From assembly GCA_021161835.1 (NCBI GenBank), contig JAGGZV010000029.1, positions 1 through 42,585 on the forward strand: a stretch of 42,585 nt of DNA. Direction: 5' to 3'. Origin of the DNA: Thermotogae bacterium. Lineage in GTDB: Bacteria > Thermotogota > Thermotogae > UBA12178. The first letter of the stretch is position 1; every line of letters begins with the position of its first letter. The notes under the pieces were generated by a model. The model made no database searches. It worked only from the letters and a program-made list of their open reading frames with translations, and had not been told where the DNA came from. Both the position numbers and the translations under genes were made by a program. Of the stretch, positions 8,169-14,934 are shown in pieces.

Positions 8169-9239
8169 GTGCTGGTCGTGTTGGGAGTGGTTATCGGATG
8201 TGTGGTATTGCTGGTCTGGTATTTTCGCAGGGTAATCGCAAAATCTATATGTTTTTTCCCGGGGTCCCTTCATTTGCTCAGATCGTACATGTACACCATA
8301 GTCGTGCGAACTCTAGGGAAGGAAAGAGATTTTCGGCGCATGGTAAAAGATGTGATAGTGTTGATGGTTAAATATATTGGAGCGGATTCGTGGAGTCTGC
8401 TTCTGACACCCAGAGACAGGAACTGGTACTTTTATGCCTGGTCAAAAGAGCTGGACTACCTGCCATTGGATGATGTAGCGGAGCACATAAGGAGTAAGGG
8501 GGTCAACATAGAAGCAGTCATAGAGCGCAAAGATGTTGTAGTTATAGAGGATACGAGAGCTTTTCCATTATGGCATGAATTTTCGCCGGTGATAACGTGG
8601 ATAGGTGTACCAATAATCGTGGGTGATGAGGTTGTGGCGGTGTTGAACCTGGATTGGTTTAAAAGAAAAAAGGTTACTAGGAAGTTGATCGGGAAAACCA
8701 GAATGTTTGGTAAGGAACTTTCTGAACTCATGGGTGCGGTCATGCATCTCAGAGAAATTCTTCTGGATTCTGAACTGGATCCCGTTACCGAGGTGAGCAA
8801 CAGAAACTACCTGTTGCGGAAACTGGGAGAGCTACAGCGTTCTTCGAACACCAACATCATCGTTCTTTTCCTGGATCTCGATGGTTTCAAAAGTGTGAAC
8901 GATGCACATGGGCATTTGGTAGGTGATCAGGTACTGAAGATAGTGGCACAAAGGATGAAAAGAGCTCTGAGAAGCAGCGACATCTTCTGCAGATATGGGG
9001 GAGACGAGTTCATAGTGGTTCTGACTGGTGTGTCTAAAGAGCGTGCCATCAACCTCGGCGAAAGATTGAGAAGGATAGTGGAAACTCCCATACATGTGGA
9101 TGAAAAGATCATAACTTTATCTGTGAGTTATGGAATAGCTGAGTATCCCGGTGAGTGTGAGGATATCCGGAAACTCATAGCTCTCGCCGACAGGAGGATG
9201 TACGAGTTCAAGAAAGAACGTGCAAAGGAAATGAGGTAA
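8169..9239 (+). CDS. Membrane-anchored GAF-GGDEF diguanylate cyclase
   Basis: The protein should make cyclic di-GMP from two GTP. It has one N-terminal membrane helix (about residues 2-18). A GAF-like sensor domain spans about 55-190 (ADSWSLLLTPRDR, WIGVPIIVGDEVVAVL). The GGDEF domain spans about 200-350, with intact GGDEF at 277-281. RSSD at 268-271 lies five residues upstream of GGDEF, which is the canonical allosteric I-site, so product inhibition is expected. The start is GTG 8169, five bases after the nadE stop and with its ribosome site inside the end of nadE, so the genes are coupled. The GAF ligand cannot be deduced. There is no EAL domain. Confidence 0.93.
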   Translation: MLVVLGVVIGCVVLLVWYFRRVIAKSICFFPGSLHLLRSYMYTIVVRTLGKERDFRRMVKDVIVLMVKYIGADSWSLLLTPRDRNWYFYAWSKELDYLPLDDVAEHIRSKGVNIEAVIERKDVVVIEDTRAFPLWHEFSPVITWIGVPIIVGDEVVAVLNLDWFKRKKVTRKLIGKTRMFGKELSELMGAVMHLREILLDSELDPVTEVSNRNYLLRKLGELQRSSNTNIIVLFLDLDGFKSVNDAHGHLVGDQVLKIVAQRMKRALRSSDIFCRYGGDEFIVVLTGVSKERAINLGERLRRIVETPIHVDEKIITLSVSYGIAEYPGECEDIRKLIALADRRMYEFKKERAKEMR

Positions 9240-9240
9240 A

Positions 9241-10884
9241 TCAAAGGGTAAAAACATCACGTAGTCTTTTGTAGACGTAGCGATCGTCTATCAGTTTTTC
9301 CACTTCACTCCAATCTTTGAAAGGACGTGCGAGTATCAATCGTTGTGCTCGCTTTTTTCCTACACCGGGAACAGCCTTTATTTCCTCGAATTCCGCAGTG
9401 TTCAGGGATCGGCCTTCGATGATGCCCATTACGGATCTCGCACTGTGGTCAACGATTTTCACGTCCACGATCTTACCATCTTTTTCTTTCCATCCCGCTA
9501 TTTTTACAAGTACGGGATACGATGCCAGTTGTCTGCCAGTGGTGAGTAAACCTTCTTTTCTTTCCACTACGACGTTCCTCAGGACTGATCCTGTGGGAAA
9601 AACCCTGCGCATCATGGGAAGATCTATCTCTTCTCTTACACGCATTTTAAAGTTTTTAAATTTCCTCTGATCTATGCTCGTATCGCTCTCTTCGAGCATC
9701 TTATGTAAAGGAGTTGAAGGGAAGACCATAACTTTCCTTATGTTTATACGTCTTATCAATAAATTTTCATCGAGTATTTTGCGAAGATAGGTGAAGTTGA
9801 TGTCGTAGGTTCGTCTGTTTTCTCCTGGAAGGCCAAAGAGCAGATTTATGCCCGGAAGCAGTTTGGGTACGCCATCCACTCTCTTGCCTCCAACTTCATT
9901 CACGATCCTTATGGCTTCGATCACTTCTTCAGGTGAAGACTGGATGTTGTTCCTCCTGATCACTTCTTCATCGAAGGATTCCACTCCGAATGAGAGAACA
10001 TCACCAGGTGTGTTGTGATGTACGATCGTTTCAAGGATTCTTAGAGTTTTCTGACGGTGCAGAACGAGGTAGTGTGGATTGGCATTATCGCAGTGCAACA
10101 CCTGTGGATTGAGAGAGGATATACCTGAAAATAGCTCTTCAAGTATCTCAGGCTGGGGTACACCGTTCTTTTCTCCATATGCCAGAATGTTGGCGCTTCT
10201 TCCAAGTCTGAAGGCCTTCACACCATGTTTCATGAGAGCCAAGATTTCTTCTATCACACCCTTCACAGATCTGTGTTTGAGCTTACCCCACAGGATTGGT
10301 TCCATACAGAAGGAGCAAAAACCATCTTTTCTCTCACATCCTCTGCTGAGCTCTACTTCACATATCACCAACGGGTAATCTGGATGCTGCTTCACTATTT
10401 CAGCTCCCAGAGGAGCCGCTTCATCAATGAGCTCATATTCGTCTCCTTCGAAAACTTTTCCTGTTAGATATTCGAACAATTTTCTGAAATTTCTCCCCAC
10501 CAGTGCCAGCTGTATATCGGGAAAATGCACCTTTATGGCTTTTTGCCCACCTTTCAGGGCGTATCCCCAAACTATAGGTCCCAGAAGGATCTTCGAAGGT
10601 CTGGTGTTGCAATCTAGAATTTTCCTCACTTCCTGAAGCGTCATGGGTGTTCCACCTCTGTATCTGCCGGGAACCGATAGACCGGCTATCATAATCAGAA
10701 AGTCGTATTCGTTCCCCATATCCCAGCTTTTTTTCTTCCTGATGGTGTCGATGGTCACATAACGGGTTTCGATCCCTACCATGTGGAATATTCCCGCGAC
10801 GTATCGTGGATAGGTGGATACGTAGGGAGGTACACCCAGAAGCGCTGGTTCATCGACATAGCCGTCCACGATGAGCGCCTTCAT
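9241..10884 (-). CDS. Radical SAM protein with C-terminal helix-hairpin-helix domain (COG1031-like)
   Basis: The 547-residue protein starts with a Rossmann-like, B12-binding-type region (MKALIVDGYVDEP). The radical SAM core has the cluster Cys at 183, 190 and 193 within SRGCERKDGFCSFC. This is C-x6-C-x2-C, not the usual C-x3-C-x2-C. The fold continues (FRLGRSANIL, SFGVESFDEEVIRRNN, GINLLFGLPGE). The C-terminus is a helix-hairpin-helix (VPGVGKKRAQRLI), suggesting nucleic-acid contact. This resembles the uncharacterised COG1031 group, and the reaction is unknown. The start is set by an ATGA overlap with the mnhB stop. A 14-codon longer frame would run into mnhB and is less likely. It is the last gene of the minus run. 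Confidence 0.85.
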   Translation of the reverse strand: MKALIVDGYVDEPALLGVPPYVSTYPRYVAGIFHMVGIETRYVTIDTIRKKKSWDMGNEYDFLIMIAGLSVPGRYRGGTPMTLQEVRKILDCNTRPSKILLGPIVWGYALKGGQKAIKVHFPDIQLALVGRNFRKLFEYLTGKVFEGDEYELIDEAAPLGAEIVKQHPDYPLVICEVELSRGCERKDGFCSFCMEPILWGKLKHRSVKGVIEEILALMKHGVKAFRLGRSANILAYGEKNGVPQPEILEELFSGISSLNPQVLHCDNANPHYLVLHRQKTLRILETIVHHNTPGDVLSFGVESFDEEVIRRNNIQSSPEEVIEAIRIVNEVGGKRVDGVPKLLPGINLLFGLPGENRRTYDINFTYLRKILDENLLIRRINIRKVMVFPSTPLHKMLEESDTSIDQRKFKNFKMRVREEIDLPMMRRVFPTGSVLRNVVVERKEGLLTTGRQLASYPVLVKIAGWKEKDGKIVDVKIVDHSARSVMGIIEGRSLNTAEFEEIKAVPGVGKKRAQRLILARPFKDWSEVEKLIDDRYVYKRLRDVFTL

Positions 10885-11519
10885 AGTATGCCACGGTGGC
10901 GCATGAATATGTAGGCCACCATCCACATCCCAACACTCACCTTGAGGAAGATCAAAATATTGAGTATGGGAATGGATACAGGTGGGTATTTAAATGGAAG
11001 GAAATTGGTAAATATTAGAACAATTATTGATGGGACAAGGAACTTTTCCAGTATTTCAACTCTGAAATCTCGAAGTCTTGCCTGTATGAGGTGTATATCG
11101 GATGTTATGGCGTACATCACCAGAGCAGTTCCACCTGCGACTCCCGCGGCGAATCCTCCACCGGGGGAAAGGTGCCCAAATGTCGCCAGGCTTATTCCTA
11201 CAACACCGGCCATGAGTGCGGCGAATCTCGCCACGGTAGTGGTGGATTCATCTGAAATTCCCACAAATTCCCTGGTTTCTTTTATTTGTGAAAGGTAGTG
11301 AACGGCAGCCATAATGGCCAGAGAAAAGATCAGAACTTCGAACATGGTGTCATATCCTCTGTTGTTCAGGTATATACCTGTCACTCCGTTGGGTACTCCG
11401 TTTTCCATAACTATCTTTTGAAGATGATCACTACCCCTTTTGTCTTCACCGTTCGTTTCCAGAAGAAGTATCGTCATGCACATCAACACAATGACAACAA
11501 CCAGTTTGATGTATTTCAC
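10881..11519 (-). CDS. mnhB: Mrp/Mnh antiporter subunit: MbhE-like segment fused to MnhB
   Basis: This is a membrane subunit of a multisubunit Na+(K+)/H+ antiporter. Residues 1-80 match the last part of MrpA (MbhE type), with GYDTMFEVLIFSLA. Residues 92-212 are MnhB, with the hallmark HLSPGGGFAAGV at 116-127 and further helices. In stand-alone Mrp systems the MbhE-like part ends the long MrpA chain, whereas here it leads MnhB. ATG 11519 overlaps the preceding stop by four bases, and the stop in turn overlaps the radical SAM start, so translation is probably coupled through all three genes. About five to six membrane helices are visible. Confidence 0.88.
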   Translation of the reverse strand: MKYIKLVVVIVLMCMTILLLETNGEDKRGSDHLQKIVMENGVPNGVTGIYLNNRGYDTMFEVLIFSLAIMAAVHYLSQIKETREFVGISDESTTTVARFAALMAGVVGISLATFGHLSPGGGFAAGVAGGTALVMYAITSDIHLIQARLRDFRVEILEKFLVPSIIVLIFTNFLPFKYPPVSIPILNILIFLKVSVGMWMVAYIFMRHRGIL

Positions 11520-12229
11520 TTGCCCATCCCTCCCATGTGTTCTTTAACTATGTTCCTCACTTCTTCTTGTTTCTCCTGAATGAAGTTGGTGAGTAATTCG
11601 TGAAGATACTCATTTTCTTTTGATACAACGAAAACATAGAAATCGTTTTCCACGATTTTCAGAAGGGACGGATGCAGTTTACCCATGATTACTTCGTATC
11701 TGGCGCGTACGAGATCCAGCATTCTTCCATCTTCCACTGTCAACCGCTTGGTTTCCAGGTAGGTTATCCTGAGATTTTTACCCGCTTCTGAAGTCAGAAT
11801 TCCTCCACAGGCAACGTCGATGAATCCATCTTTGAGCGCTTGAATGAGCTCACGCTGGTTTTCAAATTCGACCAACCGGTATTTTAGATGATGATGGGTA
11901 AAGAATCTCTTGAGTATTTCTGCCTCCACGCCCTGCATTTCGTCCTTTACCTTCTCCATGAGCATGTGCACTGGAACGAATCCTACACGCACTATACCGG
12001 ATGATTTTATCGCTATCACGTACAGCAACGTCACCAGTATGGCACCCATCAACGCTTCAGTAATGGCGACGTCAGGAGCTTTGAGATACATATATACGAG
12101 ACTCGCGGATATTCCAAATACCGCTCTGGATATCACCGCGTGCAGCAAACGCCTCTGTACGATCGTCATGATTGCCGTTATGGGAAGTAAAAGCACTATA
12201 GCTATTCCCACAACATCAATCTTTTCCAC
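11516..12229 (-). CDS. MbhD-like Mrp subunit fused to a solute-binding-protein-like domain
   Basis: Residues 1-76 hold three membrane helices and the DUF4040/MbhD hallmark YMYLKAPDVAITEALMGA, which in MrpA lies near the C-terminus. The remaining 160 residues are soluble and do not belong to any Mrp subunit. They read like a family 3 solute-binding protein lobe: VRVGFVPVH at 80-88, GVEAEILKRFF, ELIQALKDGFIDVACGGI at about 127-144, then SEAGKNLRITYLETKRL. A hinge-like KLHPSLLKIVENDFYVFVV and a helical end follow. With three helices the extra domain lies on the opposite side from the N-terminus, possibly outside the cytoplasm. The order after mnhG and before mnhB fits an Mbh/Mrp operon. The fusion is inferred from motif shape and needs a profile search. 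Confidence 0.78.
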   Translation of the reverse strand: MEKIDVVGIAIVLLLPITAIMTIVQRRLLHAVISRAVFGISASLVYMYLKAPDVAITEALMGAILVTLLYVIAIKSSGIVRVGFVPVHMLMEKVKDEMQGVEAEILKRFFTHHHLKYRLVEFENQRELIQALKDGFIDVACGGILTSEAGKNLRITYLETKRLTVEDGRMLDLVRARYEVIMGKLHPSLLKIVENDFYVFVVSKENEYLHELLTNFIQEKQEEVRNIVKEHMGGMGK

Positions 12230-12491
12230 TCTTTTGACCCCTTCCCATGTATCCTTTCGCCATCACATGTGGGAGGAACGTACCCCATACCACCAGCGCT
12301 CCCATACCCACGCCGATGTACATAAAAGCGGAGGGACTTCTCAAAAGGCATCCCAGCATGATCAATATGGATCCAAGGGTATCCGATATCCCAAGGAAAT
12401 GCAACTTCACCATGAAGCTCTTCACACGTATCAAACGCCATGTTCCCAGCACCCAGAGGGCGGTACCGGCCACTATGAGCACGGTACTCAT
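12216..12491 (-). CDS. mnhG: Mrp/Mnh antiporter subunit G
   Basis: MnhG is a small three-helix membrane subunit of the antiporter. The 91-residue product starts MSTVLIVAGTALWVLGTWRL and carries the typical VKLHFLGISDTLGSILIMLG, followed by a third helix (YIGVGMGALVVWGTFLP). The frame is open to 12665, but that part overlaps mnhF and reads like out-of-frame coding. The start at 12491 makes an ATGA overlap with the mnhF stop and is preceded by AAAGGAG. Length and motifs match the family. Confidence 0.88.
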   Translation of the reverse strand: MSTVLIVAGTALWVLGTWRLIRVKSFMVKLHFLGISDTLGSILIMLGCLLRSPSAFMYIGVGMGALVVWGTFLPHVMAKGYMGRGQKSGKD

Positions 12492-12736
12492 TCTCCTTTC
12501 CTCCCGCTCATGAAATGTGCCAGAAGCATGATACTTGCTCCACCTACTAGCATGTACACCACTGCAACGGACAGAATGAATTCGTATCCCATCACGGTCC
12601 CCAGGAACACAGCCATCACTCCCACTTTCGTTGAGAAGCTTGAAAACGCCAGCAACTTGTCCCATGGATCCTGCGATCTAAGCAGATATGCGACCATATA
12701 TATTGGTAAACTCATCAACACGATCACCCATCTCAT
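12488..12736 (-). CDS. mnhF: Mrp/Mnh antiporter subunit F
   Basis: MnhF is a short three-helix subunit. The 82-residue product, starting MRWVIVLMSLPIYMVAYLL, has the family pattern of three hydrophobic segments, with the DPWDKLLAFSSFSTKVGV loop between the first two. The usual family loop reads R-G-P-x-x-x-D-R. Here it is RSQDPWDKL, so Pro and Asp are kept. The longer open frame to 12844 overlaps mnhE. ATG 12736 overlaps the mnhE stop as ATGA, with GGTGAG upstream. It is translationally coupled to both neighbours. Confidence 0.85.
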   Translation of the reverse strand: MRWVIVLMSLPIYMVAYLLRSQDPWDKLLAFSSFSTKVGVMAVFLGTVMGYEFILSVAVVYMLVGGASIMLLAHFMSGRKGE

Positions 12737-13107
12737 CTTCTCACCACCAGTTTGTGACACAGAAGTATACCCTCTTCCTCTTTGTTGACCGCTATGCTTT
12801 CCGGTAAAAACGTTATCAGAATCACACGATCGAATACACTCCATGGTTTTTCGTTTTCCAACCTCTCGAGATAGTATTCTTCATGAAGCGTGCAGGATAT
12901 CATCAGCTTGATCGTCTGCACGAGTGCTCTGGGGAAGTTCATTACCACCAGGATCATCGTCTTCAGCGCTTCGACAAAACCGTGTCGGGGACGTATAAAG
13001 TATGCCATGAGTACTATAAAAGGCACACCGGCGATCATCTGTATGATTCCATATTCCATCGACATGGTCAACCACAGTATCATTGCAAGCAATGTTCCCA
13101 CCATCAT
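12733..13107 (-). CDS. mnhE: Mrp/Mnh antiporter subunit E
   Basis: The 124-residue product has two N-terminal hydrophobic segments (about 2-20 and 22-37). A RPRHGFVEALKTMILVVMNFPRALVQTIKLM region follows, then a soluble C-terminal part (ENEKPWSVFDRVILITFLPESIAVN). This corresponds to the MnhE pattern, in which a conserved end stretch on standard thermodynamic-turn residues (TLTPGT in many members) is replaced here by ITFLPES. MnhE is needed for assembly of the complex. The start overlaps the mnhD stop by four bases (ATGA); a second ATG follows one codon later. Confidence 0.83.
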   Translation of the reverse strand: MMVGTLLAMILWLTMSMEYGIIQMIAGVPFIVLMAYFIRPRHGFVEALKTMILVVMNFPRALVQTIKLMISCTLHEEYYLERLENEKPWSVFDRVILITFLPESIAVNKEEEGILLCHKLVVRR

Positions 13108-14537
13108 AGCAACACCCCCACCATCATCAGAACAACCAGTACAATTGCGATCGTGAGGATGTTGTCGAGATCTTCGAAAAGGTTGTGAAAGCGCGATTTG
13201 ATTGGTTTCATCAGCGAATACACCAAATAACCGGCGAACATCAGAATCATCGATTCAGTGAGATTTGGGAGAGTATACACCATCGGTTTTATACCCAGCA
13301 GTAACAGTGAAACTATGTACAATATGTCATACGTTTTGAACCCTCCGAATCTGGTTTGGCGTTTTACAGGGATGGAGATCAGTGAGAAGGAGTAGGCGGC
13401 TGTACACACGGCGGTTGATATCAAAAGCATCTTCACCCAACCGTATGAGTTGTTCAGAAGTTCCAGCTTTCCCACGAAACCACCCAGTCCCGGGGCAGCC
13501 ATCATACCGAGAGTTCCTATGAACAGTGGTATGTAGTCATTGACATGTATCCCTTCTTCGCGCAATCTATCCATGTTTCTCGTTTTGAGGTTTCCGGCGT
13601 GCAGGAAAAGCCATGATTTAAATAATCCGTGTGCCATCATGAAACCCAAACTGTATGGAGGAGCCGCCAAGATTGCTCCCGTGTGAGAGAGAGTCGAGAA
13701 AGCCAGAAGGCGCTTCGTGTCCCTTTCCAGCGTCGCGCAGACGGCACCGAATATAGCCCCCACGCTTCCGAGAACCTCTAGAAGAGGTTGTATATTCGGT
13801 AAAGCGCTGTACAGGCGGATCAAAGGAAAAATCCCAGTGTATATCACCACTCCCGACAGCAACGCTGATACAGGTGTTTCTGCTTCTGCGTGGGCATCGG
13901 GCAACCAGGTACCAAAGAGAAATATCGCAGCTTTGACGGCCAAACCGGCCACAATCAAAACGATCGGCAGTTTCATGGACGGTTCGATGACTCCAATGGA
14001 AAAGCTTCCCATGCGTTGATACAGGTTTATACATCCGAGAAGATAAAATATCATTCCAGTGTTGCCAACCATCAGGTACTTGATGGCACCCCAGATTTGA
14101 CGTGGTGTGAGCTCCAATCCCATGAGAATGAACGCTATTATGGTGGTGAGCTCCACTACCACGTATATGTTGAACAGGTCGTATGAGATGAAAGAAGCGT
14201 TGACAGTAGCGTGCAGGAATATAACGAGTGGATACAGAATTTCAGGGAAAGTTTTGCGATGTTTTTCCTTCATGAATAGAACTGTTCCCAGGGTTACCAA
14301 AGCGTTGGTCAGCATGAAAAATCCCGATACACGGTCGATGAGTATTTCGACCCCAAAGCTACCCTCGAAAGTATGGTGGATGGTTAAATCCCTGGTAATG
14401 ATAATGGTGGCGAGTACGGCGGTGGTGAACGATACCACGAGTGCGATGAAATATCTGGCTTTCCTGAATGTAAAGGAAACACTCCCCAGTATCATGGGAA
14501 GGAATACGCAGAGGAAAATGAAGATCATTTCTTCCAT
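13104..14537 (-). CDS. mnhD: Mrp/Mnh antiporter subunit D (NuoN/NuoL-like ion-pumping subunit)
   Basis: This is the only large proton-pumping-type subunit in the operon. The 477-residue product has about 14 membrane helices. The conserved Glu of helix 5 is present in IYVVVELTTIIAFILMG. The helix 7-8 region reads GLAVKAAIFLFGTWLPDAHAEAETPVSALLSG, which contains the conserved Lys and the LPDAH motif. The family is shared with complex I and membrane-bound hydrogenases; an isolated copy with MnhB, C and E-G points to a cation/proton antiporter. The start overlaps the end of mnhC by 13 bases. No NuoL-like MnhA gene is present in the window. Confidence 0.93.
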   Translation of the reverse strand: MEEMIFIFLCVFLPMILGSVSFTFRKARYFIALVVSFTTAVLATIIITRDLTIHHTFEGSFGVEILIDRVSGFFMLTNALVTLGTVLFMKEKHRKTFPEILYPLVIFLHATVNASFISYDLFNIYVVVELTTIIAFILMGLELTPRQIWGAIKYLMVGNTGMIFYLLGCINLYQRMGSFSIGVIEPSMKLPIVLIVAGLAVKAAIFLFGTWLPDAHAEAETPVSALLSGVVIYTGIFPLIRLYSALPNIQPLLEVLGSVGAIFGAVCATLERDTKRLLAFSTLSHTGAILAAPPYSLGFMMAHGLFKSWLFLHAGNLKTRNMDRLREEGIHVNDYIPLFIGTLGMMAAPGLGGFVGKLELLNNSYGWVKMLLISTAVCTAAYSFSLISIPVKRQTRFGGFKTYDILYIVSLLLLGIKPMVYTLPNLTESMILMFAGYLVYSLMKPIKSRFHNLFEDLDNILTIAIVLVVLMMVGVLL

Positions 14538-14854
14538 TTTCTCTCTATCCTCCGTACATCGAGTGTGGGAAAGTATTTTGCAAGCATCATCACGTAAACC
14601 AGCAGGATGGAGAGCACGGCAAAACCGATCACTATGGCTGTTAGAATAACAGCCTGAGGTACAGGATCCACATAGTCACTGATATTCGGCATCATTATAG
14701 GTGGATGTTTCCCTGTTTTGGAAGAAACGTAAACGAAGTAAGATACGACTCCTGTGGCCATGATATCCATGGAGATGATCTTGAGAATGAGATTCCTTTT
14801 CAGCAGTAATCCAAGCAAACCTATTCCAACTACCAGAAGAATAAGAACGCCCAC
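14525..14854 (-). CDS. mnhC: Mrp/Mnh antiporter subunit C (NuoK-like)
   Basis: MnhC is a three-helix NuoK-like subunit. The visible helices are VGVLILLVVGIGLLGLLL, LILKIISMDIMATGVVSYFVYVS and ILTAIVIGFAVLSILLVYVMMLA. A loop holds DPVPQAVILTAIVIG, the conserved MnhC/NuoK signature (DPxPQALVLTAIVI). The frame is open to ATG 14899. GTG 14854 is preferred because the strong AGGGAGG site (14868-14874) falls inside the longer frame, and because a promoter element overlaps the longer start. The 13-base spacing to GTG is rather long, so the exact start is uncertain. It heads the mnh operon. Confidence 0.87.
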   Translation of the reverse strand: MGVLILLVVGIGLLGLLLKRNLILKIISMDIMATGVVSYFVYVSSKTGKHPPIMMPNISDYVDPVPQAVILTAIVIGFAVLSILLVYVMMLAKYFPTLDVRRIERKWKK

Positions 14855-14889
14855 CGGTAACTCACATCCTCCCTGTGTCTCTTTAGAAG

Positions 14890-14898
14890 ATAATAACA
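14890..14898 (-). promoter_or_regulatory. Possible internal promoter of the mnh operon
   Basis: On the minus strand the site is TGTTATTAT, a TG-n-TATTAT extended -10 in the 80-base gap between the MazG-like gene and mnhC. This is the largest gap in the minus run. Transcription would start near 14883, downstream of the alternative ATG 14899. No good -35 is visible. Confidence 0.4.
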
Positions 14899-14934
14899 TG
14901 GGGAAATTGGAAAGAGGGTTGTGCGGGGAAGCAA

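Follow-up and report, generated by a model that had tools for sequence, protein, structure and literature searches.

The window analyzed here, a 42,585-nucleotide stretch of DNA from a Thermotogae bacterium, contains a compact Mrp-type operon. Within it lies an intact open reading frame (ORF) of 237 amino acids (11516–12229, minus strand; GTG start codon, zero internal stops), flanked on the same strand by genes for MrpC, D, E, F, and G upstream and by an MbhE/MrpB gene downstream. The features of the operon, and the domains within the ORF, are as follows.

10881–11519, minus strand: MbhE-like plus MrpB subunit, the partner gene (Pfam MnhB, E 4.9e-13; NCBIfam PRK12567.1-3)
11519–12001, minus strand: domain derived from SBP_bac_3, residues 77–237, probably cytoplasmic (Pfam, hhalign, Foldseek); stop codon at 11516–11518
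11525–11716, minus strand: returning half of lobe 1, residues 172–235, with the hinge Asp D172, YVFVVS, and two C-terminal helices (tail HMM)
11717–11749, minus strand: 11-residue stub at the lobe 2 site, residues 161–171 (spacing series; deletion visible in alignments)
11750–11995, minus strand: first half of lobe 1, residues 79–160, with GVEAEILKRF, DVACGG, and YLET (tail HMM compared with a real SBP)
12002–12229, minus strand: MbhD (DUF4040) part, residues 1–76, with three transmembrane helices; APDVAITEA at residues 51–59
12216–12665, minus strand: MrpG, true start probably internal (Pfam PhaG_MnhG_YufB, E 1e-11)
12488–12844, minus strand: MrpF, true start probably internal (NCBIfam subunit F, E 1.7e-5; Pfam MrpF_PhaF, E 0.0033; both below cut-off)
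12733–13107, minus strand: MrpE, weak (NCBIfam subunit E, E 0.0024, below cut-off; operon position)
13104–14537, minus strand: MrpD (Pfam Proton_antipo_M, E 4e-40)
14525–14899, minus strand: MrpC (Pfam Oxidored_q2, E 4.6e-23; NCBIfam PRK07375.1-5, above cut-off)

Mrp subunits B, C, D, E, F, and G are thus all present, although the profile matches for E and F are weak. The operon genes covered by the Pfam scan include no MrpA N-terminal antiporter-like subunit, MrpD being the one Proton_antipo_M protein, and in this respect the Mrp module is arranged much as in the MBH type. From its gene content, the operon is predicted to encode a stand-alone Mrp-type cation/H+ antiporter with the order C-D-E-F-G-MbhD-B. 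Elsewhere in the window, a gene at 8169–9239 (plus strand), by eye a GAF-GGDEF diguanylate cyclase-like protein, is convergent with a radical-SAM-like gene at 9241–10926 (minus strand).

The initial annotation had read the first 76 residues of the ORF as the three-helix DUF4040/MbhD segment, and our analyses bear this out. Residues 13–76 match PF13244 (MbhD; E 1.6e-18, 67 bits against a cut-off of 27.2), and the AlphaFold model places helices at residues 6–24, 28–48, and 53–76, with the PDVA motif at the start of the third helix (TM3). By phmmer, this part matches MbhD of Pyrococcus furiosus (6cfw_D) and its MBS counterpart (6u8y_D), and TM3 aligns in ungapped register with MrpA (6z16_A). The Pyrococcus MBH and MBS subunits and the C-terminal transmembrane helices (TMH) 17–19 of MrpA share with our protein the three-helix fold, the APDVA motif, and the place in the Mrp module. 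They differ in what follows: the Pyrococcus chains, at 94–96 amino acids, end soon after TM3, whereas MrpA TMH19 continues into the MbhE part, and neither carries a solute-binding protein (SBP) domain.

The remaining ∼160 residues had been likened to a family 3 SBP, and here too Pfam, profile-profile comparison, and AlphaFold with Foldseek concur. Residues 85–227 match PF00497 (SBP_bac_3) by a small margin over the curated cut-off (E 2.7e-6, 27.6 bits against 26.4), with E 9.4e-7 when the tail domain is scanned alone. Among 17 diverse Thermotogota homologs, all 17 match both Pfam families (E≤0.01 for SBP), with a best SBP E value of 1.9e-18. A profile of 45 tails aligned to 23 real Thermotogota SBPs with an hhalign probability of 97.5% (E 6.7e-12), compared with 0.1%–0.2% for five column-shuffled controls. 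The lone tail sequence, in contrast, found only a weak phmmer match in the PDB (best E 0.045), so that a profile search was required to show the relation. The AlphaFold model of the whole protein has a pLDDT of 87.4, with the tail mostly above 90, and nearly all of its best 50 fold matches in the PDB are family 3 SBPs (best E 3e-8, probability 1.00), T. maritima ArgBP among them. The periplasmic-binding fold sought in residues 77–237 is therefore present, and a chance SBP match is ruled out by the nil result of the shuffled controls together with the matching of every homolog. Agreement among sequence profile, fold, and phylum-wide conservation supports a fusion of MbhD to an SBP family 3 fold.

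A survey for the same fusion across the heat-loving Thermotogota found it throughout the phylum. Some part of the protein is matched in 88 of 103 genomes, and a tailed match, extending beyond residue 120, occurs in 68 of the 103 (67 plus the window's own), representing all 11 families; the recurrence of this fusion in 68 genomes rules out an annotation or assembly artifact. Wherever such neighbors could be located, MrpG and MbhE/B flank the tailed gene on either side. One Thermotogota copy (G041:C13:225051-225383) has three in-frame stops, reflecting a broken gene or a poor assembly.

In 53 Thermotogota genomes the tailed gene is accompanied by a second, short MbhD gene, mostly encoding about 80–130 amino acids. 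Complex1_49kDa is the family of the complex-I/hydrogenase large subunit, and a gene of this family lies within 12 kb of 63 of 71 short MbhD paralogs and of none of the 67 tailed copies. The remaining eight short copies have no Complex1_49kDa gene on their contig, and the partition of tailed and short forms is without counterexample: the tail marks stand-alone Mrp operons. The two forms look like old paralogs, and for this reason the 67 tailed copies do not count as independent events. Unlike most of its relatives, the window's genome (86% complete) yielded neither a short MbhD paralog nor a Complex1_49kDa gene.

Alignment of the tail to real SBPs locates what has been lost. Positions 18–73 of the tail HMM align to residues 44–100 of one real SBP, and positions 116–158 align to residues 206–248. 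By this alignment, the two blocks correspond to the two halves of lobe 1, and the intervening stretch of the SBP corresponds to lobe 2. Between comparable landmarks, the gap spans 65–71 residues in the nine real SBPs measured (for which the landmarks differ slightly), 39–52 in homologs from Bipolaricaulota and Caldisericota, 27–37 in some Thermotogota, and ∼11 in most, including our ORF. This gradation looks like step-wise loss. With lobe 2 down to 11 residues, the tail lacks the two lobes and intervening cleft of an SBP.

Residues associated with ligand binding show a mixed picture. A regular expression for the T-x-x-R ligand-clamping motif, expected after strand 3, found it in none of the 45 Thermotogota tails, in seven of which the site was not located; this search is crude, detecting the motif in merely 10 of 23 real SBPs, and the hhalign alignment, a better comparison, sets the ITxxR stretch of SBPs against unrelated letters in the tails. 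Of 30 non-redundant sequences, 26 retain the hinge Asp, D172, and in this non-redundant set columns such as those of G100, D138, L158, and D172 are 87%–97% conserved. The most conserved tail residues look largely structural (G100, G142, L158, and Y198), and no conserved polar pocket beyond D172 was obvious in the non-redundant tail sequences. The loss of T-x-x-R disfavors an ordinary amino acid ligand.

Tails on MbhD are also found outside Thermotogota; our profile search of genome contigs gives a lower bound on this distribution, among the matches listed. These matches include a longer tailed form in Bipolaricaulota/Acetothermia and a Caldisericota bin (at least L056, L057, L066, L070, L071, L075, L078, L079, and L089), with an SBP-like tail of mostly ∼190–200 amino acids in which some of lobe 2 is apparently retained. 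The earlier view that the tail is foreign to Mrp subunits calls for a caveat: the NCBIfam families PRK07377.x, described as "hypothetical protein" (for example, in Synechococcus elongatus), already comprise MbhD plus a tail; our ORF scores below their cut-off (PRK07377.1-6; 99.7 bits against 149). Cyanobacterial tails are about 100–120 amino acids in most relatives examined, gave no Pfam SBP match among those scanned, and are only weakly related to that of Thermotogota (hhalign 71.7% over 64 columns). The plasmid collection yielded a single match, also cyanobacterial. An Acaryochloris plasmid (L052:900-8184) bears an Mrp operon with a tailed MbhD of 182 amino acids that adjoins a gene for a sodium-dependent bicarbonate transport family permease. 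A third group, again among the matches listed, carries an α/β tail of ∼110 amino acids in Clostridia, Spirochaetes, and others (L080–L082, L085, L086, L088, L090, and L094; further such loci are L098, L100, L104, L105, L110, L116, L120, and L128). For this group, the AlphaFold model of L086 (pLDDT 83) has a comparable order of elements, and its fold matches were to MbhD/NuoJ-type helices alone, with none significant for the tail and no significant SBP fold. That this is the same domain is unsupported by the fold search and by hhalign, which gave 0.2% to SBPs and 10.9% to the Thermotogota tail.

Homology to MrpA bears on which side of the membrane the tail occupies. D53 and T57 of our protein are in register with the PDLALT motif of MrpA by phmmer, and on the strength of this alignment TM3 appears to be the counterpart of TMH19. 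In B. pseudofirmus MrpA, D678 and T682 line a tunnel to the periplasm, E687 lies mid-path, and E707 lies at the cytosolic end (PMC9568556). If D53 is equated with D678, residue 82 takes the position of E707, and the tail would thus begin on the cytosolic side. Averaged over 45 homologs, net loop charge is +2.0 between TM1 and TM2, −0.9 between TM2 and TM3, and +3.2 after TM3. Homology to TMH19 and this charge distribution together place the tail probably on the cytoplasmic side. TMH19 lines the proposed sodium path; its Glu687 has been assigned a crucial part in transferring sodium, and rotation of the helix has been speculated to open the path (PMC9568556). In the proteins aligned here, an invariant Gly (G62) takes the place of Glu687.

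At slightly less than an even chance, we tentatively favor a reading in which the protein belongs to a stand-alone Mrp antiporter whose MbhD carries a cytoplasmic, SBP-derived domain without lobe 2 that acts as an allosteric module. Regulation by the tail, its ligand, and mechanical coupling are offered here purely as hypotheses. A cytosolic ligand or partner would bind the tail domain, and binding would alter TM3 and hence the rate of antiport. Only two to three residues separate the domain from TM3, and because its first strand (from residue 79) directly follows the end of the helix (residue 76), movement of the domain could pass to TM3. The absence of T-x-x-R and the largely structural character of the conserved residues weaken this allosteric reading. 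A more specific version, in which the Thermotogota Mrp is gated by a cytosolic metabolite, such as an amino acid or other amine, on a one-lobe SBP domain coupled to TM3, seems rather unlikely. Isolated type II SBP lobes can fold, and one lobe can bind ligand weakly alone, which makes ligand sensing by a single lobe possible (PMC10601554). The initial annotation went from a receptor-like domain to ligand-gated ion exchange; of that argument the SBP fold family stands, but lobe 2 and T-x-x-R are gone and the predicted topology is cytoplasmic.

A structural role accounts for the data nearly as well and is nearly as likely. The tail may be an assembly clamp on the cytoplasmic face that binds no ligand and either joins MbhD to MbhE/B and C or fills space taken up by other components in the hydrogenase-linked relatives, a distinct possibility given that lobe 2 and T-x-x-R are lost, that conservation is mainly structural, that the tail is limited to stand-alone Mrp operons, and that Clostridia and Spirochaetes bear α/β tails, unrelated or very distant, at the corresponding position. 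Such a clamp leaves unexplained why an SBP lobe was used and its hinge Asp kept; in many type II SBPs, the lobe retained here is the one that supplies the majority of the ligand residues (PMC10601554). The tail could instead offer a surface on which a soluble protein of the cytoplasm docks. The phylum-wide conservation of an exposed α/β domain fits this idea, as does the adjacency of the cyanobacterial operon to a sodium-dependent bicarbonate transporter, a system that has soluble regulators, but the neighbors, partly surveyed, revealed no conserved partner gene apart from those of Mrp itself, and we consider docking improbable. That the tail is a decaying, functionless relic is very doubtful: the graded reduction of lobe 2 and the interrupted G041 copy would suit it, but nearly every genome across the 11 families keeps the frame open, and tail columns such as those of G100 and D172 remain strongly conserved. 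The family 3 fold would equally suit a periplasmic, ligand-gated receptor domain of the kind first proposed, but we give this little credence, since homology and the positive-inside charge pattern both indicate the cytoplasm and only one lobe is present.

Should the allosteric reading hold, the closest analogy would be KefC, a cation/H+ antiporter with a cytoplasmic regulatory domain. KefC would work alike if the Thermotogota tail gates transport from the cytoplasm, but it belongs to an unrelated antiporter family (CPA2), and its domain is of an unrelated Rossmann type. Within the literature searched, the MbhD-SBP fusion is apparently undescribed: queries on DUF4040/SBP_bac_3, Mrp domains, and PRK07377 found no paper on it, in a search mostly outside the subscription literature. 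Mrp antiporters are related to the ancestors of complex I, and gating of their sodium path is debated. A conserved cytoplasmic domain on a helix implicated in gating, situated away from complex-I/hydrogenase modules, provides a natural way into how the Mrp module is regulated, and metabolite gating, if true, would make this a ligand-gated CPA3 antiporter with a natural single-lobe SBP sensor.

The domain also bears on the evolution of the periplasmic-binding fold, as a naturally occurring SBP pared down to a single lobe, for which forms of intermediate size can still be seen. It shares lobe 1 topology and the C-terminal helices with family 3 SBPs such as T. maritima ArgBP and E. coli GlnBP and differs from them in having one lobe, lacking both T-x-x-R and a secretion signal of its own, being fused to an antiporter subunit, and probably residing in the cytoplasm. 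Isolated lobe constructs of HisJ, LAO, and ArgBP are, like the tail, single lobes that fold alone (PMC10601554); those are engineered, whereas the Thermotogota tail is natural and phylum-wide. The tail profile also matched a 145-amino acid HisJ chain (6xks), which may be such an isolated-lobe construct.
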